DNA of 64,000 nucleotides, from positions 1 through 64,000 of the forward strand of contig NZ_RHHB01000001.1 of assembly GCF_003710805.1 (NCBI RefSeq), in the 5' to 3' direction. Within the stretch, counting starts at the first letter, position 1, and every line of letters begins with the position of its first letter. A program made the translations under genes and the position numbers. The stretch is from Agromyces tardus (GTDB taxonomy: Bacteria > Actinomycetota > Actinomycetes > Actinomycetales > Microbacteriaceae). The notes under the pieces are model-generated. The model saw only the letters and a list, made by a program, of their open reading frames with translations, was not told the DNA's origin and searched no databases. Shown here piece by piece: positions 15,748-32,923 of the stretch.

Positions 15748-17166
15748 ATGACTGTCGAGACCCCCGACGAGACCGGCGCGGCGCCCGTGCCCGTCATGCC
15801 CGCCCGCGAGAGCGTGCTGAGCCCCGAGTACCGGTGGATCAGCATCGGCATGTGCGCGCTGATCTTCCTCGCCGCGTTCGAGGCGATGGCGGTCACGGCG
15901 GTCATGCCGGCGGTCGCCGCCGAGCTCGACGGCCGGTCGCTGTACGCCCTCGCCTTCGCGGGGCCGCTCGCCGTGAGCGTCATCGGCATGATCGTCGCCG
16001 GCAACGCCGCCGACCGCGGCGGCCCGCGCCTCGCGCTCTACAGCTCGGTTGCGCTCTTCGTCGCGGGCCTGCTCGTGGCGGGGCTCGCCACCGACATGTG
16101 GCAACTCGTCATCGGGCGCCTCGTGCACGGCATCGGCGGCGGCGGACTCACCGTCGCGCTCTACGTCATCGTGGGCCGGGTGATCCCCCCACGGCTGCAG
16201 CCGGGCATCTTCGCGGGCTTCGCGGCCGCCTGGGTGGTGCCCTCGCTCGTCGGCCCGTTCATCGCCGGAGTGATCGCCGACGGCATCGGCTGGGAATGGG
16301 TGTTCCTGGGCGTCGTCGCGCTCGTCGTGCCCGCGCTCCTGATGGTGGTGCCGAGCCTGCGCGGCCTCGACACCGGCACGATCGCCGACCCTCCGCCGTG
16401 GCGCTGGTCGCGCATCGCGTGGGCGGCCCTCGCCGGCGTCGCCGTGCTCGTGCTCAACCTCTCCACGCAGGCCGGCGGCTGGGCCGGATGGGTGCTGCCG
16501 ATCGCCGCGATCGCGGTCATCGCCGTCGCCGTGCGCCCGATGGTGCCGCGCGGCACGCTGCGCGCGGCGCAGGGCCTGCCCGCCGGTGTGCTCACGCGCG
16601 GCATGCTGGCCGGCTCCTTCTTCGGCACGCAGGTGTACCTGCCGCTCCTGCTCACCGGCGAGCCGTACTCCCTCAGCACCTCGATGGCCGGCCTCGTGCT
16701 CACCGTCGGCGGAGTCTCGTGGGCGATCGCGTCGCAGGTGCAGGGGCGCAACCCGGTGCGACTCAGCCACGAACGGTGCCTGCGCATCGGACTCGCGCTC
16801 CTCGGTGCCGCGATCGGGCTGACCCTCGTGGCGACCGTGCTCACCCTGCCCCCGATCGCGTTCCTGCTCACGTGGGTGCTCGCGGGCGGCGGCATGGGAC
16901 TCATGTACCCGCGCACCACCGTGATCGGCCTGCAGTCGTCGACGGTCGAGAACCAGGGTTTCATCAGCTCGGCGATGGCGGTCGCCGATGCGCTCGGCTC
17001 CGCCGTGGCCATCGCGCTCACGGCCATCGTCTACGCGCTGCTCCTGCCGACGGGTCCGGTCGTCGCGGTCGCGGGCGCGATCTCGGTGGCGCTCGGCGTC
17101 TGGGCGGTCGCGGTGTTCGCGGGGCTGCGCGCGCACGCCGAGGTCCCGGAGGCGGCGGCCGCCTGA
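15748..17166 (+). CDS. MFS efflux transporter, SoxR-controlled
   Basis: A 472-residue MFS protein with 14 predicted hydrophobic segments (DHA2-like). It has the loop 2-3 motif GNAADRGGPRLALYSS and motif-C-like GFAAAWVVPSLVGPFIAGVI. The start at ATG 15748 is seven bases after a -10 box in a SoxR-box promoter, so expression is expected only when SoxR is oxidised. Likely role: export of a redox-active or otherwise toxic small molecule. A close paralogue sits at 18199, with an aldo/keto reductase between them. Confidence 0.88.
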   Translation: MTVETPDETGAAPVPVMPARESVLSPEYRWISIGMCALIFLAAFEAMAVTAVMPAVAAELDGRSLYALAFAGPLAVSVIGMIVAGNAADRGGPRLALYSSVALFVAGLLVAGLATDMWQLVIGRLVHGIGGGGLTVALYVIVGRVIPPRLQPGIFAGFAAAWVVPSLVGPFIAGVIADGIGWEWVFLGVVALVVPALLMVVPSLRGLDTGTIADPPPWRWSRIAWAALAGVAVLVLNLSTQAGGWAGWVLPIAAIAVIAVAVRPMVPRGTLRAAQGLPAGVLTRGMLAGSFFGTQVYLPLLLTGEPYSLSTSMAGLVLTVGGVSWAIASQVQGRNPVRLSHERCLRIGLALLGAAIGLTLVATVLTLPPIAFLLTWVLAGGGMGLMYPRTTVIGLQSSTVENQGFISSAMAVADALGSAVAIALTAIVYALLLPTGPVVAVAGAISVALGVWAVAVFAGLRAHAEVPEAAAA

Positions 17167-18076: not shown

Positions 18077-18198
18077 CTGCGGGCCGGGGCCGGGCCGGGG
18101 CGGCGGCATCCGCTCGTCGCCGGCGATGGCAGCCGGCAGCCGGTGCTCGGCAGTCGTGCCCCGGGCGGATGTCGCGGGGCCGTCGTAGGCTCGATCGG

Positions 18199-19650
18199 GT
18201 GATCGATTCCAGCGCCGGATCCGAGCCCGTCGTCGCCGACGGGCGGCGGCGCAGACCACGCGACACCCCGCGTGGCGGGCCGCTCTCGCAGCCCTACCGT
18301 TGGCTGTCGATCGGCATGTTCGCGCTCATCTTCATCGCCGCGTTCGAGGTGATGGCGGTCACCACGATCATGCCGCTCGTCGCCGAGGAGCTCCACGGCG
18401 AGAGCCTGTTCGCGCTGGCGTTCTCGGTGCCGTTCGCCGCGGGCGTCGTCGGCATGGTCGCGTCCGGCAACTGGGCCGACCGTTCCGGTCCGTTGCCGCC
18501 GCTCATCGCCGCGGGCGTGCTCTTCTCGATCGGCCTCGTGATCGCCGGCCTCGCGCCGAACATGGAGGTGCTCGTGCTCGGCCGTCTCGTGCACGGCATC
18601 GGCGGCACGGCGGTGACCGTGCCGCTCTACGTGATCGTGGCGCGCGTCTACCCCGAGCACCTGCGAGCCCGCGTGTTCGCGGGGTTCGCGGCCGCGTGGG
18701 TGATCCCGTCGATCGTGGGGCCCGCGGTCGCGGGCGTCATCGCCGAGCAGGCCAGCTGGAGGTGGGTGTTCCTCGGCGTCATCGTGCTCGTGCTGCCCGC
18801 CGCCGGCATGATGCTCCGGCCGCTGCTGCGGGTTCACGACCTGGTCGCCGGCGACCCGACGGTGCGGTGGAGCCTCTCGCGCCTCGGCTGGTCGGTGCTC
18901 GCGGCGGCGGGCGCGCTCGGCGTGAGCCTCGCGAAGGAGCTCGGGGAGCCCTGGCGCTGGGTGGTCGCGGCGGCGGCCATCGCGGTCGCGGTGGTGGCGG
19001 TGCGTCCGCTGCTGCCGGCCGGCACGCTCCGGGCGGCGCGCGGCATGCCTGCGACGGTGCTCCTGCGCGCCGTGGTCGCGGGCGCCTTCTTCGGGAGCGA
19101 GATCTACCTCCCCTACCTCCTCATCGACCGGTACGAGTTCTCGCCGAGCCTCGCGGGCGTCGTGCTCACCGGCGCGGGCCTCTCGTGGGCCGCGGCCTCG
19201 TGGGTGCAGGGCCGCCTCGGCGAGCGGATGTCGAACACCGATGCCGTGCGCGTCGGCACGGGCGTGCTCGCGGTCGCCCTCGTCGCGGTGCTCGCGGTCT
19301 CTGCCTTCTCGCTCGCCCCCGCGGTGGCGTTCGTCGCGTGGACGGCGGCGGGCGCCGGAATGGGCTTCATGTACCCGCGCTTCTCGGTCGCGGTCCTCGA
19401 ATTGTCGGCGAAGTCGGCGCAGGGCTTCAACAGCGCCGCGCTGAACATCGGCGAGGCGCTCAGCTCCGCCATCGCCCTCGCGATCACCGCCCTCGTCGCG
19501 AGCGTCGCCGGGACGGCGGCGTTCACCGCGGACTTCGTCGTCACCGTGCTGATTGCGCTCGTCGGGGTGGTGCTCGCCCCGCGGATGCGGCCGGCGGGCG
19601 AGGGCGGCGGCCTGCGGTACGGCGTCGCGCCCGCGGCATCCGTCGACTGA
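18199..19650 (+). CDS. MFS efflux transporter, paralogue of the gene at 15748
   Basis: A 483-residue MFS transporter. It shares with the 15748 protein the opening ALIF(L/I)AAFE(A/V)MAVT, the loop GNWADRSGPLPPL and GFAAAWVIPSIVGPAVAGVI, so the two are recent paralogues. An N-terminal basic stretch (DGRRRRPRD) precedes TM1. GTG 18199 is seven bases after TAGGCT (18186-18191), predicting leaderless expression. No SoxR box is present, so control has diverged. Substrate unknown. Confidence 0.87.
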   Translation: MIDSSAGSEPVVADGRRRRPRDTPRGGPLSQPYRWLSIGMFALIFIAAFEVMAVTTIMPLVAEELHGESLFALAFSVPFAAGVVGMVASGNWADRSGPLPPLIAAGVLFSIGLVIAGLAPNMEVLVLGRLVHGIGGTAVTVPLYVIVARVYPEHLRARVFAGFAAAWVIPSIVGPAVAGVIAEQASWRWVFLGVIVLVLPAAGMMLRPLLRVHDLVAGDPTVRWSLSRLGWSVLAAAGALGVSLAKELGEPWRWVVAAAAIAVAVVAVRPLLPAGTLRAARGMPATVLLRAVVAGAFFGSEIYLPYLLIDRYEFSPSLAGVVLTGAGLSWAAASWVQGRLGERMSNTDAVRVGTGVLAVALVAVLAVSAFSLAPAVAFVAWTAAGAGMGFMYPRFSVAVLELSAKSAQGFNSAALNIGEALSSAIALAITALVASVAGTAAFTADFVVTVLIALVGVVLAPRMRPAGEGGGLRYGVAPAASVD

Positions 19651-20916: not shown

Positions 20917-20973
20917 TTGACAGCGCCGCATGGGATGTGGCTAAAGTGAGACCCGCCATGTGAACGGTCACAT
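20917..20973 (+). promoter_or_regulatory. Promoter and operator of the araD-chvE-mmsAB operon
   Basis: A consensus -35 TTGACA (20917-20922) and TAAAGT (20942-20947) are 19 bp apart. The operator ATGTGA-ACGG-TCACAT (20958-20973) lies just after the expected start of transcription. A further half-site, CTGTCACAC, follows at about 20977-20985. This geometry fits roadblock repression by regulator 1. Confidence 0.75.
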
Positions 20974-21030
20974 CGACTGTCACACGGCCCGCAGCATCTG
21001 ACGACGCACCTGACGAAGGAGTCCCCCGCC

Positions 21031-21123
21031 GTGACCGTCACCACGACCGACGAGCGAGCAGCCGTTCGCGCTGCGCACCGCGCCGGTTCGTTCGTGGGCG
21101 AGGCAGGGGCGGTTCGGGCGTGA
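21031..21123 (+). CDS. Short ORF coupled to araD copy 1
   Basis: A 30-codon frame (begins MTVTTTDERAAVRAAHRAG) starts at GTG 21031. It has the only good ribosome-binding site here, GAAGGAG nine bases upstream. Its stop overlaps the GTG of araD (GTGA), whose own start has no clear Shine-Dalgarno. It may be a translated leader that couples araD translation, or the stump of a deleted gene, given the deletion scar at the other end of araD. Not recognised as a protein family. Confidence 0.45.
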   Translation: MTVTTTDERAAVRAAHRAGSFVGEAGAVRA

Positions 21124-21839
21124 ACGGGTACGGTCCCGCGATCGAGGTCGCCATCGCACGAGTGCGCGCCGAGGTGGCGAAGCTGCACGGCGAGCTCACC
21201 CGCTACGGATTGGTCGTCTGGACCGGCGGCAACGTGTCGGGTCGCGTGCCCGGCGCCGACCTGTTCGTGATCAAGCCGTCGGGAGTCTCGTACGACGACC
21301 TCGCCCCCGAGAACATGATCCTGTGCGACCTCGACGGCAACGTGATCCCGGGAACGCCCGGTGCCGATCGCAGCCCGTCGAGTGACACGGCGGCGCACGC
21401 CTACGTCTACCGCAACATGCCCGAGGTCGGCGGGGTCGTGCACACGCACTCGACGTATGCGACGGCGTGGGCGGCGCGCGGCGAGGCGATCCCGTGCGTG
21501 ATCACGGCGATGGCCGATGAGTTCGGCGGGCCGATCCCGGTGGGTCCGTTCGCGATCATCGGCGACGACTCGATCGGGCGGGGCATCGTCGAGACGCTCT
21601 CGGGCCATCGCTCCCGTGCGGTGCTGATGCAGAACCACGGGCCGTTCACGATCGGGTCGTCGGCGAAGGACGCCGTGAAGGCGGCCGTGATGGTCGAGGA
21701 CGTCGCCCGCACCGTCCACTTCGCCCGCGAGGCCGGTCCGCTCATCCCGATCCCGCAGGAGTCGATCGACCGCCTCTTCGACCGGTACCAGAACGTGTAC
21801 GGGCAGCCGGCCGACGCCCGGAAGGCGGGCGCACGATGA
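21120..21839 (+). CDS. araD: L-ribulose-5-phosphate 4-epimerase, copy 1
   Basis: A 239-residue class II aldolase/epimerase that converts L-ribulose 5-phosphate to D-xylulose 5-phosphate. Metal His residues are in GVVHTHSTYA, the phosphate and active-site loops are WTGGNVSGR and KPSGVSYDDL, and the C-terminal His region is MQNHGPFTIG. It is nearly identical over most of its length to copy 2 at 26298, with the two diverging at the N-terminus and after about residue 228. The GTG start overlaps the upstream short ORF. No araB or araA follows; instead there is a joined remnant of both. Confidence 0.9.
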   Translation: MNGYGPAIEVAIARVRAEVAKLHGELTRYGLVVWTGGNVSGRVPGADLFVIKPSGVSYDDLAPENMILCDLDGNVIPGTPGADRSPSSDTAAHAYVYRNMPEVGGVVHTHSTYATAWAARGEAIPCVITAMADEFGGPIPVGPFAIIGDDSIGRGIVETLSGHRSRAVLMQNHGPFTIGSSAKDAVKAAVMVEDVARTVHFAREAGPLIPIPQESIDRLFDRYQNVYGQPADARKAGAR

Positions 21840-21940
21840 CCGATTCCACGCGCGGCGCCCTCGGGCCCGACGCCACCACAGACTTCCAGCGCGAGGTGCG
21901 TTGGAACCAGGCCCGCCGGCGATCGGCACCCGGCCTGTAG
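21836..21940 (+). pseudogene. Deletion scar: araB start fused to araA end
   Basis: A 34-codon frame starts at ATG 21836, overlapping the araD stop exactly as araB does in the intact operon (27098). It opens MTDSTRG, resembling the araB start MSDNTNQ, and then passes into [13 protein letters not shown]. This matches the last residues of AraA ([14 protein letters not shown], ending at 30302) in protein and nucleotide sequence. The simplest reading is an ancestral araD-araB-araA operon that lost everything between the first codons of araB and the last codons of araA, in frame. Confidence 0.85.
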
Positions 21941-22079
21941 CTCCACCACAACTCAACACGCTTGCAGCATCCGACGCCTATCGCGGATGCCGCGGGGGAG
22001 CGGACGTACGTGGACGACGCCCGCTCCGACTGTCACCAAGACAACGACGTCCATGAATGACACAGTGAAAGGAAACACC

Positions 22080-23204
22080 GTGAAGAACACGAAGAAGGTG
22101 CTTCTCGCAACGCTCGCAGCGGGCTCCATGCTCGCACTCGCAGCGTGCTCGGGCGGCTCCGGCGGATCGGGCGACGGCGGCGGCGACGGTGGCCTCATCG
22201 GCGTCGCGATGCCCACCAAGAGCTCGGAGCGCTGGATCCAGGACGGCGACGCGGTCAAGTCGCAGCTCGAGGACCAGGGCTTCACCGTCGACCTGCAGTA
22301 CGCGGAGGACGACATCCCCACCCAGGTCTCGCAGATCGAGAACATGATCACCAAGGGCGCAGAGGCCCTGATCATCGCGTCGATCGACGGCACCACGCTC
22401 TCGCAGGTGCTGCAGGACGCCGCTGACGCGGACATCCCCGTCATCGCCTACGACCGCCTCATCCGCGACTCGGAGAACGTCGACTACTACGCGTCGTTCG
22501 ACAACTTCGTCGTCGGCCAGCAGCAGGCCTGGTCGGTGCTCAACGGCCTCGGCCTCACCGAGCTCGACGGCACCCCGATCGACGGCGCGCCCGCCGGTCC
22601 GTTCAACATCGAGCTGTTCGCCGGTTCGCCCGACGACAACAACGCCACGTTCTTCTGGAACGGTGCGATGGACGTGCTCCAGCCCCTGATGGACGACGGC
22701 ACGCTCGTCGTGAAGTCGGGCCAGACCGAGTTCGAGCAGGCGGCGACGCTGCGCTGGGACGGCGAGGTCGCGCAGAGCCGCATGGAGGACATCCTCACGG
22801 CGAACTACTCCGACGGCTCGAAGGTCAACGCGGTGCTCTCGCCGTACGACGGCCTGTCGCGCGGCATCATCTCGGCACTCACCGACGCGGGCTACACGGT
22901 CGGCGCCGAGTGGCCGATCATCTCCGGCCAGGACGCCGAGCTCGACTCGGTCAAGGCCATCAACTCGGGTGAGCAGTACGCCACCATCTTCAAGGACACG
23001 CGCAACCTCGCGAAGGTCGCCGTCGACATGGCGTCCGCGATCCTGAACGGCGAGAAGCCCGAGGTCAACAACACGACCGACTACGACAACGGCGTGAAGG
23101 TCGTGCCGTCGTACCTCCTCGAGTCGCAGATCGTCGTCAAGGACAACATCCAGGAAGTCCTCGTCGACAGCGGTTACTGGACCGACGCAGAGATCAACGG
23201 CTGA
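22080..23204 (+). CDS. chvE: ChvE-type multiple monosaccharide-binding lipoprotein
   Basis: A 374-residue sugar-binding protein with a lipoprotein signal peptide (lipobox LALAACSG) and a Gly/Ser/Asp linker. The type I periplasmic-binding fold follows ([55 protein letters not shown]). The ChvE family binds L-arabinose, galactose, xylose and related sugars. GTG 22080 is preceded by AAAGGA at six bases, and ATG 22053 is upstream in frame. It is first in the chvE-mmsA-mmsB transport set, behind araD copy 1. Confidence 0.9.
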
Positions 23205-23333: not shown

Positions 23334-24863
23334 ATGACCACCAACATTCTCGAGATGCGCGGCATCACGAAGACCTTCCCCGGTGTGAAGGCGCTCTCGA
23401 ACGTGACCCTCGAGGTCGCGCGCGGCGAGGTGCACGCCATCTGCGGCGAGAACGGCGCCGGCAAGTCCACCCTCATGAAGGTGCTGTCGGGCGTGTACCC
23501 GCACGGCACCTACGACGGCGACATCGTCTTCGAGAACGAGGTCGTGGAGTTCAAGGACCTCACCGACTCGGAGTCCAAGGGCATCGTGATCATCCACCAG
23601 GAGCTCGCGCTCAGCCCCTACCTCTCGATCGCCGAGAACATCTTCCTGAACAACGAGTTGAAGGGCCGCAACGGCCTCATCGACTGGAACAAGACGAACT
23701 TCGAGGCGTCGAAGCTCCTGGCCCGCGTGGGTCTCAAGGAGAACCCGACGACCAAGATCATGGACATCGGCGTGGGAAAGCAGCAGCTCGTCGAGATCGC
23801 GAAGGCGCTCTCGAAGCAGGTGAAGCTGCTCATCCTCGACGAGCCCACCGCGGCCCTGAACGACGAGGACTCCGACCACCTGCTCGACCTGATCCTGCAC
23901 CTCAAGGGGCAGGGCATCACGTCGATCATCATCAGCCACAAGCTGAACGAGATCAAGAAGGTCTCCGACACCGTCACGGTCATCCGCGACGGCAAGACGA
24001 TCGAGACGATCGCCAAGGCGGATGTCACGGAAGACCGCATCATCAAGGACATGGTCGGCCGCGACCTCGAGCACCGCTACCCCGACCACACCCCGAACAT
24101 CGGCGAGGAGCTGCTGCGCGTCGAGGACTGGACCGCGCACCACCCGCAGGACACCTCCCGCGTCATGGTCGACAAGGTCAACCTCAACGTGCGCGCGGGC
24201 GAGATCGTCGGCATCGCCGGCCTCATGGGCGCCGGCCGCACCGAGTTCGCGATGAGCCTCTTCGGGCAGTCGTATGGGTCGAAGATCACCGGCAAGGTGT
24301 TCCTTCGCGGCAAGGAGATCAAGACGCGCTCGGTCGCCGAGGCGATCGACCACGGCATCGCGTACGCCACCGAGGACCGCAAGACCTACGGCCTCAACCT
24401 CATCGAGGACATCAAGCGCAACATCTCGATGGCGTCGCTCAAGAAGCTCGAGAAGTACGGCCTCGTGCACGACAACGAGGAGTACAAGGTCGCCAACGAG
24501 TTCCGCTCGTCGATGAACATCAAGGCGCCGAGCGTGCTCGTGAAGACGGGCAAGCTCTCGGGCGGCAACCAGCAGAAGGTCGTGCTGTCGAAGTGGATCT
24601 ACGCCGACCCCGACGTGCTCATCCTCGATGAGCCCACCCGCGGCATCGACGTGGGTGCGAAGTACGAGATCTACTCGATCATCAACCGACTGGCAGCAGC
24701 GGGGAAGGGCATCATCGTGATCTCCTCCGAGCTGCCGGAGCTCCTCGGCATCTGCGACCGCGTGTACGCCCTCTCCGAGGGGCGCATCACGGGAGAGCTG
24801 CCCGTCGAGGAGGCCACGCCCGAAGCAATGCTGAAGCTCATGACCATGGAAAAGCCCCGCTAG
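23334..24863 (+). CDS. mmsA: Multiple monosaccharide ABC transporter, ATP-binding protein
   Basis: A 509-residue double ATPase of the GguA/MmsA type. The first half has Walker [10 protein letters not shown], an unusual signature [12 protein letters not shown], and Walker [13 protein letters not shown]. The second half has the degenerate P-loop GLMGAGRTE, signature [14 protein letters not shown] and Walker [13 protein letters not shown]. This asymmetric pairing is normal for sugar ATPases of this class. Start ATG 23334 follows GGAGCAAGG. It powers import together with MmsB and ChvE. Confidence 0.93.
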
Positions 24864-24896: not shown

Positions 24897-26138
24897 ATGT
24901 CGAATCCGAATCCCCCCGTCACCGAGGAAACCCACGCGGCCGGCGGCAACATCAACCCCGTCGACAACAAGTTCACCGAGCGCCTGAGCCACGTGCTCGC
25001 CGACCTCGGCAAGAACGGCATCTTCATCGCCCTCATCGCGGTCGTGGTGCTGTTCTCGTTCCTCACCAACGGCATCCTGCTGCGCCCCCAGAACATCTCC
25101 AACCTCGTCGTGCAGAACGGGTACATCCTCGTGCTCGCGATCGGCATGGTGATGGTCATCATCGCCGGCCACATCGACCTGTCGGTCGGTTCGGTCGCCG
25201 CGTTCGTGGGTGCGTGCTCCGGCGTGTTCGCCGTGCAGTGGGGACTGCCGTGGTGGCTGTCCGTCATCCTCTCGCTCGTCATCGGCGCACTCGTCGGCGT
25301 GTGGCAGGGCTTCTGGATCGCGTTCGTGGGCATCCCAGCCTTCATCGTGACGTTGGCGGGCATGCTCATCTTCCGCGGCCTCGCGCTCGTGGTGCTGGGC
25401 AACGCGAACATCGGCTCGTTCCCCACCGAGTACCGCGCACTGGGCAACGGCTTCCTCACGAACCTGTTCGGCGAGTTCGAGCTCGACCCGCTCACCCTCG
25501 GCGTCGGCGCCATCGCGATCATCGCGCTCATCGTGCAGCAGGTGCGCACCCGTCGCGGCCGCCAGAAGTACGGCCAGGACGTCGAGCCCATGGCCTGGTT
25601 CATCACCAAGCTCGTGCTCATCTCGGCGGCGATCGGCTTCTTCGCCTACTCGCTCGCGTCGTACAAGGGCATCCCGATCACGCTGATCATCCTCGCGGTG
25701 CTCATCCTCGTGTACGGCATCGTGATGAACCGCACGGTGTTCGGCCGCCACATCTACGCGATCGGCGGCAACCGCCACGCGGCCGAGCTCTCGGGCATCA
25801 AGACGCGTCGCGTCGACTTCTGGCTCTTCGTCAACATGGGCACCCTCGCGGCGCTCGCCGGCCTGATCTTCACCGCGCGACTGAACCTCGCGGGCCCGAA
25901 GGCCGGTGACGGGTTCGAGCTCGAGGCGATCTCGGCGGCGTTCATCGGCGGCGCGGCCGTGCAGGGCGGCGTCGGCACGATCGGCGGCGCCATCATCGGT
26001 GGCCTGATCATCGGCGTGCTGAACAACGGCATGTCGATCATGGGCATCGGCATCGAGTGGCAGCAGGTCGTCAAGGGCATGGTGCTGCTGCTCGCGGTCG
26101 CGTTCGACGTGTACAACCGTCGTCGTTCGGGCAGCTGA
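24897..26138 (+). CDS. mmsB: Multiple monosaccharide ABC transporter permease
   Basis: A 413-residue permease with about ten membrane helices, of the RbsC/GguB family (GMVMVIIAGHIDLSVGSVAAF, GIPAFIVTLAGMLIFRG, AISAAFIGGAAVQGGVGTIGGAIIG). A cytoplasmic basic loop (RTRRGRQKYGQD) in mid-protein is typical of GguB/MmsB and longer than in RbsC. The start at ATG 24897 has CAGGAGAC upstream. It is the last gene of the operon, followed by a clear terminator. Confidence 0.92.
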   Translation: MSNPNPPVTEETHAAGGNINPVDNKFTERLSHVLADLGKNGIFIALIAVVVLFSFLTNGILLRPQNISNLVVQNGYILVLAIGMVMVIIAGHIDLSVGSVAAFVGACSGVFAVQWGLPWWLSVILSLVIGALVGVWQGFWIAFVGIPAFIVTLAGMLIFRGLALVVLGNANIGSFPTEYRALGNGFLTNLFGEFELDPLTLGVGAIAIIALIVQQVRTRRGRQKYGQDVEPMAWFITKLVLISAAIGFFAYSLASYKGIPITLIILAVLILVYGIVMNRTVFGRHIYAIGGNRHAAELSGIKTRRVDFWLFVNMGTLAALAGLIFTARLNLAGPKAGDGFELEAISAAFIGGAAVQGGVGTIGGAIIGGLIIGVLNNGMSIMGIGIEWQQVVKGMVLLLAVAFDVYNRRRSGS

Positions 26139-26297: not shown

Positions 26298-27101
26298 ATG
26301 GCTGCCCCCGAGTACGCGCCCGAGGTCGAGGCGGCCATCGCACAGGTGCGGCACGACGTCGCGCGGCTGCACGGCGAGCTCACCCGCTACGGATTGGTCG
26401 TATGGACCGGCGGCAACGTGTCGGGTCGCGTGCCCGGTGCCGACCTGTTCGTGATCAAGCCGTCGGGCGTCAGCTACGACGACCTCGCCCCCGAGAACAT
26501 GATCCTCTGCGACCTCGACGGCGACGTGATCCCGGGCACGCCCGGGTCGGAGCGCAGCCCGTCGAGTGACACGGCGGCGCACGCCTACGTCTACCGCAAC
26601 ATGCCCGAGGTCGGCGGGGTCGTGCACACCCACTCGACGTTCGCCGTCGCCTGGGCGGCGCGCGGCGAGGCGATCCCGTGCGTGATCACGGCGATGGCCG
26701 ATGAGTTCGGCGGGCCGATCCCGGTGGGTCCGTTCGCGATCATCGGCGACGACTCGATCGGCCGTGGCATCGTCGAGACCCTCTCGGGCCACCGCTCCCG
26801 CGCGGTGCTCATGCGGAACCACGGGCCGTTCACCATCGGCACCGATGCGAAGGACGCGGTCAAGGCCGCGGTGATGGTCGAGGATGTCGCGCGCACGGTG
26901 CACTTCGCACGCGAGGCGGGGCCGCTGATCCCGATCCCGCAGGAGTCGATCGACCGCCTCTTCGACCGGTACCAGAACGTGTACGGCCAGAGCGGGGACG
27001 CTCGGGTCTCGACGGGCTCGACCGGCACGGAGGGCGGCTCGACCGGCACGGAGGGCGGCTCGACCGGCACGGACGCAGAGAGCGGAGACGCAGGGCGATG
27101 A
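26298..27101 (+). CDS. araD: L-ribulose-5-phosphate 4-epimerase, copy 2
   Basis: A 267-residue epimerase with the same active-site motifs as copy 1 (WTGGNVSGR, KPSGVSYDDL, VHTHSTFAVA, MRNHGPFTIG) and near identity over the core. ATG 26298 follows GAAGGAGACTGC. Unlike copy 1, it ends in a low-complexity tail with GSTGTEG repeated three times, encoded by a 21-bp tandem repeat (27015-27077). This tail contains the REP-family word CTCGACCGGC. It overlaps araB by four bases (ATGA) and is the first gene of the intact araD-araB-araA operon. Confidence 0.92.
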   Translation: MAAPEYAPEVEAAIAQVRHDVARLHGELTRYGLVVWTGGNVSGRVPGADLFVIKPSGVSYDDLAPENMILCDLDGDVIPGTPGSERSPSSDTAAHAYVYRNMPEVGGVVHTHSTFAVAWAARGEAIPCVITAMADEFGGPIPVGPFAIIGDDSIGRGIVETLSGHRSRAVLMRNHGPFTIGTDAKDAVKAAVMVEDVARTVHFAREAGPLIPIPQESIDRLFDRYQNVYGQSGDARVSTGSTGTEGGSTGTEGGSTGTDAESGDAGR

Positions 27102-28720
27102 GCGACAACACGAATCAGCAGGGCGCGGCCGACGGCGGCGCGCGCGCGGCGATCCTCGAGGGGCGCACGTCGCTCGGCATCGAGTTCGGCTCGACCCGCA
27201 TCAAGGCCTGCCTCGTCGGCGCGGATCCGACCGTGGTGCTCGCCGTGGGCAGCCACGAGTGGGAGAACCGGTTCGAGGGCCGCGTCTGGACCTACTCGCT
27301 CGACGACGTCTGGTCGGGACTGCAGGCGGCGTACGCCGACCTCGTCGCCGACCTGCGTCGCCGCTACGACGTCGAGCCGCAGACCTTCGGCGCGATCGGC
27401 GTCTCGGCGATGATGCACGGCTACCTCGCGTTCGACGCGAGCGACGAGCTGCTCGTGCCGTTCCGCACGTGGCGCAACACGTCGACGGGTGCGGCCGCCG
27501 CGGAGCTCAGCGAGCGCTTCGGCCTCAACATCCCGCTGCGCTGGTCGATCGCCCACCTGCACCAGGCGATCCTCGACGAGGAGCCGCACGTTCCGCAGCT
27601 CGACTTCGTGACCACCCTCGCCGGCTACGTGCACTGGCGGCTCACGGGCCGCAAGGTGCTCGGCGTCGGCGATGCCTCGGGGATGTTCCCGATCTCCGCC
27701 GCGACGCACGACTACGACGCGCGACTGCTCGCCGTGTACGACGGGCTCGTCGCCGATCGCGCACCGGGCCTGCGCGTCGCCGAGCTGCTCCCCGAGGTGC
27801 TTCCGGCGGGCCGGCGTGCAGGCGAGCTCACCGCCGAGGGCGCCGCGCTCCTCGACCCGACCGGTGCGCTGCAGCCCGGCATCCCGCTGTGCCCGCCCGA
27901 GGGCGACGCCGGCACGGGCATGGTCGCGACCAACTCGGTCGCCCCGCGCACCGGCAACGTCAGCGCCGGCACGAGCATCTTCGCGATGGTCGTGCTCGAG
28001 CACCCGCTCGCGAGCGCCCACCACGAACTCGACCTGGTCACGACGCCGGCGGGCGATCCGGTGGCCATGGTGCACTGCAACAACGGCGCGAGCGAGCTCG
28101 CCGCGTGGGCGGGCGTGTTCGGGCAGTTCGCCGCGGCATCCGGAGCCCGGCTCGACGGCGACGCCGTGTTCGAGGTGCTCTTCCGGGCGGCCCTCGACGG
28201 CGAGGCGGACGCGGGCGGGCTGCTCGCGTACAACCACCTCGCGGGGGAGCCCATCGCGGGACTCGTCGAGGGGCGGCCGCTCGTCGTGCGCACACCCGAC
28301 AGTCGCCTCACGCTCGCGAACTTCATGCGCGCCCAGCTCTACGGCGTGTTCGGCACCCTCGCCCTCGGCATGCGCGTGCTCGACGGCGAGGGCGTCGAGC
28401 TCGACCGCATGTTCGCGCACGGCGGCATCTTCCGCACCGCGGGCGTCGCGCAGCGGCTGCTGGCCGGCGCGCTCGATGCGCCCGTCGCCGTCGGCGAGAC
28501 GGCGTCGGAAGGCGGGGCCTGGGGCATCGCCGTGCTGGCGTCGTACCTGTCGGAGGCCGCCGAGGTCGACCTCGGCGACTACCTGAACGAGCGCGTGTTC
28601 GCGAACGCCCCGTTCGACGTGGTCGACCCCGTCGCAGCCGACGTGGCCGGGTTCTCCGCGTTCCTCGACCGCTACCGGGCCGGCCTCGCCGCCGAGGCGG
28701 CAGCCGTCGACGCCCTCTGA
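27098..28720 (+). CDS. araB: FGGY-family kinase, probable L-ribulokinase
   Basis: A 540-residue sugar kinase with the actin-like N-terminal nucleotide site ([16 protein letters not shown]), a substrate region ([13 protein letters not shown]) and the C-terminal FGGY-like nucleotide loop ([19 protein letters not shown]). It belongs to a subgroup often annotated only as a carbohydrate kinase or xylulokinase. Its position between araD and araA makes phosphorylation of L-ribulose the likeliest reaction. Its start overlaps the araD stop. The equivalent gene of the first araD operon survives only as a start-codon scar. Confidence 0.88.
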
Positions 28721-28778
28721 CCGAGCGCCCCCCGACTCACCGAACTGCTTCATCGAACATCGCACCAGGGAGACAGAC

Positions 28779-30302
28779 ATGACCCGCACGCCCCTCCAGA
28801 CGAGCCTCGACCAGTACGAGGTCTGGTTCCTCACCGGCAGCCAGCACCTGTACGGCCCCGAGACGCTGAAGCAGGTCGCCGACCAGTCGCGCCAGGTCGC
28901 CGAGACGCTCGACGCGGCATCCGACGTGCCCGTGAAGGTCGTGTGGATGCCGGTGCTCACCGACTCCGACGCGATCAAGCGCGTGGCCCTCGAGGCCAAC
29001 GCCGCCGACAACGTGATCGGCCTCGTCGCGTGGATGCACACCTTCAGCCCCGCGAAGATGTGGATCGCCGGCCTCGACGCGCTGCAGAAGCCGCTCGCCC
29101 ACCTGCACACGCAGGCCAACGTCGAGCTGCCGTGGGGCGAGATCGACTTCGACTTCATGAACCTGAACCAGGCCGCACACGGCGACCGCGAGTTCGGCTA
29201 CATCCAGACGCGCCTCGGCGTTCCGCGCAAGACGATCGTGGGCCACGCGAGCGACCCGCGCGTGCAGCAGGAGCTCGGCACATGGCAGCGCGCCGCGGCC
29301 GGCCTCGCGGCATCCCGCAGCCTGAAGCTCGCCCGCTTCGGCGACAACATGCGCTACGTCGCCGTGACCGAGGGCGACAAGACCGAGGCGGAGCTGCGCT
29401 TCGGCGTGCAGGTCAACACGTGGGGCGTGAACGAGCTCGCCGAGGCGGTGGCCGCGGCATCCGACGCCGAGGTCGACCTGCTCGTCGCCGAGTACGAGGA
29501 CCTCTACGAGGTGGTGCCCGAGCTGCGGAAGGGCGGCGACCGCCACCAGTCGCTGCGCGACGGCGCCGCGATCGAGCTCGGCCTGCGCTCGTTCCTCGAG
29601 GAGGGCGGCTTCGGCGCGTTCACCACCTCGTTCGAGGACCTCGGCGCACTGAAGCAGCTGCCGGGCCTCGCGGTGCAGCGGCTCATGGCCGAGGGCTACG
29701 GCTTCGGCGCCGAGGGCGACTGGAAGACCGCGATCCTCGTACGCGTCGCGAACGTCATGGGCGCGGGCCTGCCCGGCGGCGCGAGCCTCATGGAGGACTA
29801 CACCTACGACCTCACGCCCGGCGACGAGCTCATCCTCGGCGCGCACATGCTCGAGGTGTCGCCGTCGCTCACCACCGCGAAGCCGACGCTCGAGATCCAC
29901 CCGCTCGGCATCGGCGGCAAGGAGGACCCCGTGCGCCTCGTGTTCACGGCCGATCCCGGCCCCGCCGTCGTCGTCGCGATGAGCGACATGCGCGACCGCT
30001 TCCGGCTCACGGCGAACGTCGTCGAGAACGTCGAGCTGCGGCATCCGCTGCCCAAGCTCCCCGTGGGCCGGGCCGTGTGGAAGCCCGCCCCCGACTTCCA
30101 GACGAGCGCCGCCGCGTGGCTCACCGCGGGCGCCGCGCACCACACGGTCATGTCGACCGCCGTGGGCGTCGACGTGTTCCGCGACTTCGCCGACATGGCC
30201 AAGGCCGAGCTCCTCGTCATCGACGAGGACACCACCCTGCCCGGTTTCCAGCGGGAGGTGCGCTGGAACCAGGCGTACTACCGCCTGGCGCAGGGGTTCT
30301 GA
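28779..30302 (+). CDS. araA: L-arabinose isomerase
   Basis: A 507-residue AraA of normal length that converts L-arabinose to L-ribulose. Family landmarks are present: [65 protein letters not shown], and the metal Glu region [12 protein letters not shown] with the second Glu in SLMEDYTYD. The start at ATG 28779 follows GGGAGACAGAC. It is the last catabolic gene of the operon, and a LacI gene follows after 17 bases. Confidence 0.96.
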
Positions 30303-32671: not shown

Positions 32672-32682
32672 GAGCGGCCCGC

Positions 32683-32923
32683 CGGTCGAGGAGCGCCGAA
32701 GGCGCCCGCCGGTCGAGTAGCGCCGAAGGCGCGTATCGAGACCTCCCGCCGGTCGAGCAGCGCCGAAGTCGCCCGCCGGTCGAGTAGCGCCGAAGGCGCG
32801 TATCGAGACCTCCCAGCGGGCAGCCGGGTCTCGATACGCCGCTCCGCGGCTACTCGACCAGCGGATGTCGACAGCGGGTCTCGATACGCCGCTCCGCGGC
32901 TACTCGACCAGCGGATGCCGCGC
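32683..32923. repeat. Cluster of REP-like palindromes
   Basis: Four GCCGGTCGAG-type units (from 32683, 32709, 32749 and 32775) run in one direction with AGCGCCGAAGGCGCGTATCGAGACC cores. They are followed by two inverted units GGGTCTCGATACGCCGCTCCGCGGCTACTCGACCAGCGG (about 32826-32864 and 32877-32915). The inverted halves can fold into long hairpins between the convergent genes at 32671 and 32923. Confidence 0.9.

Follow-up and report, generated by a model that had tools for sequence, protein, structure and literature searches.

How an operon may lose a gene while expression of the genes downstream of it persists is the question raised by a short ORF in the genome of the soil bacterium Agromyces tardus. 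The ORF (21836-21940, 34 codons) begins with an ATGA overlap on the stop codon of an L-ribulose-5-phosphate 4-epimerase gene, araD1, and carries the C-terminus of an arabinose isomerase, AraA; both properties had been put forward in the original prediction and are confirmed. We analysed it within a window of 64,000 nucleotides (contig NZ_RHHB01000001.1, positions 1 to 64,000) and compared the operon region in relatives, two of which recur below: G036, where lacI-araB-araD-araA-chvE-mmsA-mmsB is present with every gene intact, and G074 (Agromyces ramosus), in which araD1 lies between stubs of araB (VSVTPADEHLSTERGAANEVGERYVIGVDYGTEHDGAEAVTA) and araA that are clearer than those of the window. 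Our preferred reading, to which we give a probability of roughly 0.72 on sequence comparison, is that this is a trimmed arabinose operon, in which an araB stub would have been kept as a translational coupler and an araA stub would be debris, with a start probably derived from araBx, the kinase gene of a second operon in the window.

Two operons and two copies of araD

The features needed for the argument all lie on the forward strand.

20917 and 20942-20947, + strand: putative promoter, TTGACA (20917) and TAAAGT (20942-20947); similar elements seen by eye upstream in relatives
20958-20973, + strand: putative LacI-type operator, palindromic ATGTGAACGGTCACAT; similar elements seen by eye upstream in relatives
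21012-21023, + strand: strong ribosome-binding site GACGAAGGAGTC; the same motif precedes the intact araB of G036 and the stub of G074
21031-21123, + strand: araB stub or leader ORF, 30 codons, VTVTTTDERAAVRAAHRAGSFVGEAGAVRA, ending in the GTGA at which araD1 starts; assigned by likeness to the eye and by phase statistics
21120-21839, + strand: araD1, L-ribulose-5-phosphate 4-epimerase, intact, with GTG start and TGA stop (NCBIfam NF005123, 375.8 bits, cut-off 251; Pfam Aldolase_II)
21836-21940, + strand: araA stub, 34 codons; by alignment, 21836-21850 resembles the start of araBx and 21869-21940 the end of chvE-linked araA
21941-22079, + strand: sequence 5' of chvE, alignable with G036 and G074 and containing the gene's ribosome-binding site and a predicted hairpin (21967-21990)
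22080-23204, + strand: chvE, multiple-monosaccharide substrate-binding protein (NCBIfam NF040907, 535 bits, cut-off 460)
23334-24863, + strand: mmsA/gguA, sugar ABC importer ATPase (NCBIfam NF040905, 867.8 bits, cut-off 810)
24897-26138, + strand: mmsB/gguB, sugar ABC importer permease (NCBIfam NF040906, 559.7 bits, cut-off 450)
26298-27101, + strand: araD2, second L-ribulose-5-phosphate 4-epimerase (NCBIfam NF005123, 374.8 bits, cut-off 251)
27098-28720, + strand: araBx, FGGY-family kinase (best NCBIfam score 88.9 bits, to XylB, cut-off 380.25)
28779-30302, + strand: araA2, intact L-arabinose isomerase (NCBIfam NF002795, 795.1 bits, cut-off 622)

The second operon is intact at 26298-30302 in the order that had been described as araD-araB-araA, but its middle gene is not AraB by NCBIfam. 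The product of araBx scores 22.7 bits on the ribulokinase model (cut-off 428), on which the AraB of G036 reaches 758.1 bits, and it falls below every NCBIfam cut-off. The position of its gene next to araD and araA nevertheless suggests that it may phosphorylate L-ribulose.

Over their core, araD1 and araD2 share 90.1% DNA identity in the window, 95.8% in G023, 97.2% in G030 and 96.1% in G074, and 65-87% in the other 12 of the 16 genomes compared; gene conversion seems to have homogenised the pair in some members of the genus (three of the 16 genomes). A plasmid search returned one match of 78%, in Nonomuraea, spanning most of araD. The tail of araD2 (27015-27073) is a perfect tandem repeat of a 21-base unit, GGCTCGACCGGCACGGAGGGC, present in 2.8 copies, and a similar STG-rich tail is found at the end of araD1 in G015. 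The araD2 of G074 (L051, 14431-15112) is matched in two frames and its frame continues into araBx, a frameshift or a sequencing error.

Two further sets of repeated or related sequence were noted in the window. A 67-base unit occurs twice at 32678-32814 with 97% matches, and the genes at 15748-17166 and 18169-19650 are 52% identical over 408 residues; from our reading, we take these two to be putative MFS transporters flanking a putative aldo/keto reductase.

The RNA ahead of chvE (21941-22080) folds with a z-score of -2.92, one of 200 shuffles being as good. Its GCATCCG...CGGATGC hairpin, also seen by eye in several relatives, is possibly a processing or stability element.

Origin of the 34-codon ORF

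The 3' part of the ORF matches araA ends elsewhere in the genus, with E-values down to 1.6e-9. It contains GACTTCCAGCGCGAG and ends in GGCCTGTAG, both of which also occur in the chvE-linked araA of G036, and its 3' flank can be aligned with G036 and G074 as far as chvE; the araA stub of G074 ends in GGCCTGTAA. The intact araA2 of the window is unlike it, having GGTTTCCAGCGGGAG instead and ending in TTCTGA. Because the end markers and the 3' flank match those of G036 and G074, the scar records the loss of chvE-linked araA. The parent gene's end still lies in its original place, where G036 and 9 of the 20 family loci chosen have an intact araA. On these markers a recent duplication of the second operon was rejected as the source of the scar; the AraA end is of the old chvE-linked type, not that of araA2, 8 kb away. 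That a deletion scar lies at 21120-21940 is supported, the range being right though without the second stub upstream (21031-21123); a clean loss of about 3 kb in one event is not borne out.

Recognisable araA stubs are rare, being found in two of the 37 chvE-bearing genomes, that of the window (G000) and G074, and the two differ at their starts and in the parts that they retain. By DNA search, 34 of the other 35 genomes have no match to an araA stub between araD1 and chvE (among them G035 and G060, whose contigs are cut near the stub; the gap was also read in 24 of the 34), and the remaining genome, G036, has the intact araA. A protein search with the araA stub of G074 gave 10 matches, one of them the stub itself. 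Among these, P0010 (34 residues) joins an araA start to an araA end and P0006 (29 residues) carries the AraA end after a different start; the other seven, possibly fragments or other fusions, were set aside. Such relics are a trap for annotation, the A. ramosus araA stub being labelled L-arabinose isomerase in UniRef.

The start of the ORF appears to have a different affinity from its end. Its first 15 bases are identical at 14 positions to the araBx starts of G009, G027, G064 and G077, while the best match to any araA start is 10/15. Across 7956 open ATG sites in the loci of the genus, six reach 13/15, of which four reach 14/15, and the two distinct sequences among those four are the sequences of the same araBx starts. 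On this 14/15 match the call of a fusion between an araB-like start and an AraA end is probably right, with one correction: the end is AraA and the start resembles that of the second operon's kinase, but this kinase falls short of the NCBIfam ribulokinase cut-off (22.7 bits against 428). The first five codons thus probably derive from araBx, judging from the sequence, and they may have arrived by either of two routes, araBx having formerly stood there or gene conversion from araD2-araBx having carried them in.

The second route amounts to an alternative account of the scar, in which gene conversion between the araD copies overran the araD2 stop and set the opening codons of araBx beside what was left of the old araA. 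The high core identities of G023, G030 and G074, and the intermediate value of the window, fall above those of the other 12 genomes as this account expects, and the 3' half of the scar belongs with chvE-linked araA. However, the limits of a converted tract could not be located in the window; the araD 3' ends are alike in most of the 16 pairs, and an araD-araBx-araA-chvE order, found in three loci of other genera, would do equally well. We consider conversion a serious candidate but somewhat short of an even chance.

Another account would involve araA only, its own start region having been joined to its own end, with the likeness of MTDST to araBx due to chance. The G074 stub and P0010 are stubs of this make-up, and the bases GCACGATGA at the junction are matched where araD meets araA in G036 and G074. 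The match to araA starts, at most 10/15, is nevertheless well below the 14/15 obtained for araBx starts, and the sole open ATG sites among the 7956 to reach that level carry araBx-start sequences; moreover, the first 51 bases of the scar match the G074 stub weakly, 64 of 1000 shuffles being equal. The araBx-start matches in G009, G027, G064 and G077 demoted this account from preferred reading of the scar, and we now think it rather unlikely.

Phase and descent of the leader before araD1

The leader at 21031-21123 stands where G036 has araB. By eye, its start and ribosome-binding site are like those of the G036 araB and of the plain araB stub of G074, and its probable descent from araB is read from about nine residues. 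In a Cryobacterium MAG (L122) araA is still intact and the araB stub contains SVIGIDYG. Descent from araB is plain to the eye in G074 and L122 only; the leaders of the genus have no common amino-acid motif by eye, and that of G082 (A. subbeticus) is not AraB-like by eye and is accompanied by no recognisable araA stub. A protein-database search for the leader had the A. ramosus leader itself as its sole match.

What the leaders do share is their phase. To define them, the first start codon past the ribosome-binding motif was taken as the leader start, with the frame ignored. Among the 37 genomes with chvE, the contigs of G035 and G060 are cut before araD1, G036 is intact, and G076 was excluded, since the match to its araD begins late and lies next to unknown bases. 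The 33 remaining genomes were classed into 27 with a leader ORF and six with the ribosome-binding motif directly before the araD start. The initial motif identified 25 leaders, every one of them in phase, and two more (G005 and G082) came from a motif widened after inspecting them. All 27 leaders are in phase and stop precisely on the NTGA at which araD begins, even though they have 12 distinct lengths of 17-55 codons and, by parsimony, must have changed in length at least 13 times along the tree. The control gap between the araD1 stop and chvE in the same 27 genomes is unphased, with phases of 10:9:8 and 20 distinct lengths. The ORF at 21031-21123 is thus one whose stop overlaps the next start and whose phase is conserved.

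The leaders are also open. Stops occur at 0 of 848 codons in frame and at 21/821 and 3/821 in the other two frames, the low figure of 3/821 reflecting the rarity of stops at about 70% GC. All 27 remained open in one of 2000 shuffles, but many shuffled leaders do stay open (18.6 of 27 on average), which makes openness weaker evidence than phase. In the genomes with a leader, the median ribosome-binding strength is -7.0 kcal/mol for araD1 and -9.1 kcal/mol for the leader; this gap was rejected as proof of coupling, the paired difference not being significant (p = 0.07).

Could the ORF be an old regulatory leader peptide and no relic of araB at all? In-phase leaders do precede araD in other genera too, in 9 of the 27 placements tested outside Agromyces (one leader having 2 codons), the others comprising 11 with none, six with no recognisable motif and one other arrangement. 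A regulatory peptide sits poorly with the absence, by eye, of an amino-acid motif common to the leaders, with the recognisable AraB N-terminal sequence held in the leaders of G074 and L122, and with the presence of araB itself, behind the same ribosome-binding site, in G036. We judge this explanation distinctly unlikely.

Ancestry, mechanism and known systems

The ancestral order can be approached from relatives of several kinds. The genus sample comprised 60 genomes, in which the chvE of this operon was found in 37, including that of the window (search threshold E up to 1e-100), and the operon region was compared in all 36 chvE-bearing relatives. A true AraB relative occurs in 3 of the 60 genus genomes and in 87 of 299 family genomes, and araA is present somewhere in the genome in all 37 chvE-bearing genomes. 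The order araB-araD-araA-chvE-mmsA-mmsB is seen in 9 of 20 family loci chosen by hand from the 87 AraB-bearing genomes. Among loci selected by chvE (57 of 80 laid out), araB comes first in three (L109, L120, L134), and the order araD-araBx-araA-chvE appears in another three, in Leifsonia sp. Leaf264 (L091), a Naasia MAG (L130) and a Microbacterium MAG (L133), so that the two orders are equally frequent. Relatives with araD-'araB'-araA-chvE-mmsA-mmsB, expected from the original prediction, were therefore found, in these same 3 of 57 named loci; this order is not the sole candidate ancestor, given araB-araD-araA-chvE in G036, in 9 of the 20 chosen loci and in 3 of the 57. AraB first is the better supported ancestor for Agromyces on account of G036 and G074, and, with L122 as a third witness, we infer that lacI-araB-araD-araA-chvE-mmsA-mmsB was likely its ancestral order.

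In the tree of chvE-mmsA-mmsB, G074 falls with G082 and the window in one clade (98/98), the backbone being weak. G036 groups elsewhere, with G077, among genomes without araB, and its araB could for that reason have been re-acquired. Taken with the absence from G082 of both an araA stub and an AraB-like leader, this placement suggests several independent trimmings, and the stubs of G074 are apparently of separate origin from those of the window.

We regard it as highly improbable that the 34-codon ORF is a free-standing small gene with a function of its own: it is open and overlaps araD1 as a coupled gene would, but a DNA search of 60 genus genomes does not find it conserved as a separate gene, which would have spoken against a scar, and the stub is recognisable in only G000 and G074 of the 37, differing between them, with an intact araA in G036.

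The trimmed-operon reading proposes the following course. The second operon, araD2-araBx-araA2, or other copies would have left the first operon's araB and araA superfluous, and internal deletions in both would have left in-frame stubs either side of araD1, which was retained together with the importer. Ribosomes would bind at the site inherited from araB, make a short peptide, stop on the araD1 start and restart there by termination-reinitiation; translation of the leader and its coupling to araD1 are predictions from sequence. The araB stub was probably retained because a strong inherited ribosome-binding site and an end on the araD1 start would let ribosomes restart; its phase and openness seem to matter and its amino-acid sequence seems irrelevant. 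The araA stub would be debris that is usually lost, having no coupling job since chvE has its own ribosome-binding site. Coupling would thus account for an araB stub that keeps its frame and an araA stub that can be recognised in no more than 2 of 37 genomes.

A broader reading has, in our estimation, about even odds. On it, bacteria of the family would repeatedly cut a redundant first operon gene to a minigene that preserves frame, has ribosome loading as its sole role, is independent of sequence and is under selection, the end state being the old ribosome-binding site fused to the next gene. Within Agromyces there is a replicated series, from an intact araB of 629 codons through leaders of 55 to 17 codons to no leader, which suggests how an operon may shed a gene while those behind it continue to be expressed, and which points to one possible source of short upstream ORFs in high-GC bacteria. 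Judged by titles and abstract openings, none of the open-licence papers listed deals with Agromyces araB stubs or with relics kept as couplers.

The components of this proposal have counterparts in known systems. Termination-reinitiation coupling at ATGA overlaps is known (Huber et al. 2019, PMC6728339), and there too the upstream ORF stops within the start codon of a following gene on the same strand; the systems described are gene pairs, whereas here the upstream partner is a short relic with a peptide that seems not to be conserved. Short upstream ORFs with no role but ribosome delivery are also known (reviewed in PMC12548453), and the job proposed for them, loading the downstream gene, is the same; the difference is that the origin is traceable here, in at least G074 and L122, to an internal deletion that kept the frame of what had been the leading gene of the operon. 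Finally, the araBDA operons joined to a ChvE-GguAB (MmsAB) importer in Microbacteriaceae have the same enzymes and importer, with a LacI-type regulator upstream, and differ from the present locus in that here the genes are divided between two operons and there are two araD genes, the second operon having a kinase that is not AraB by NCBIfam.
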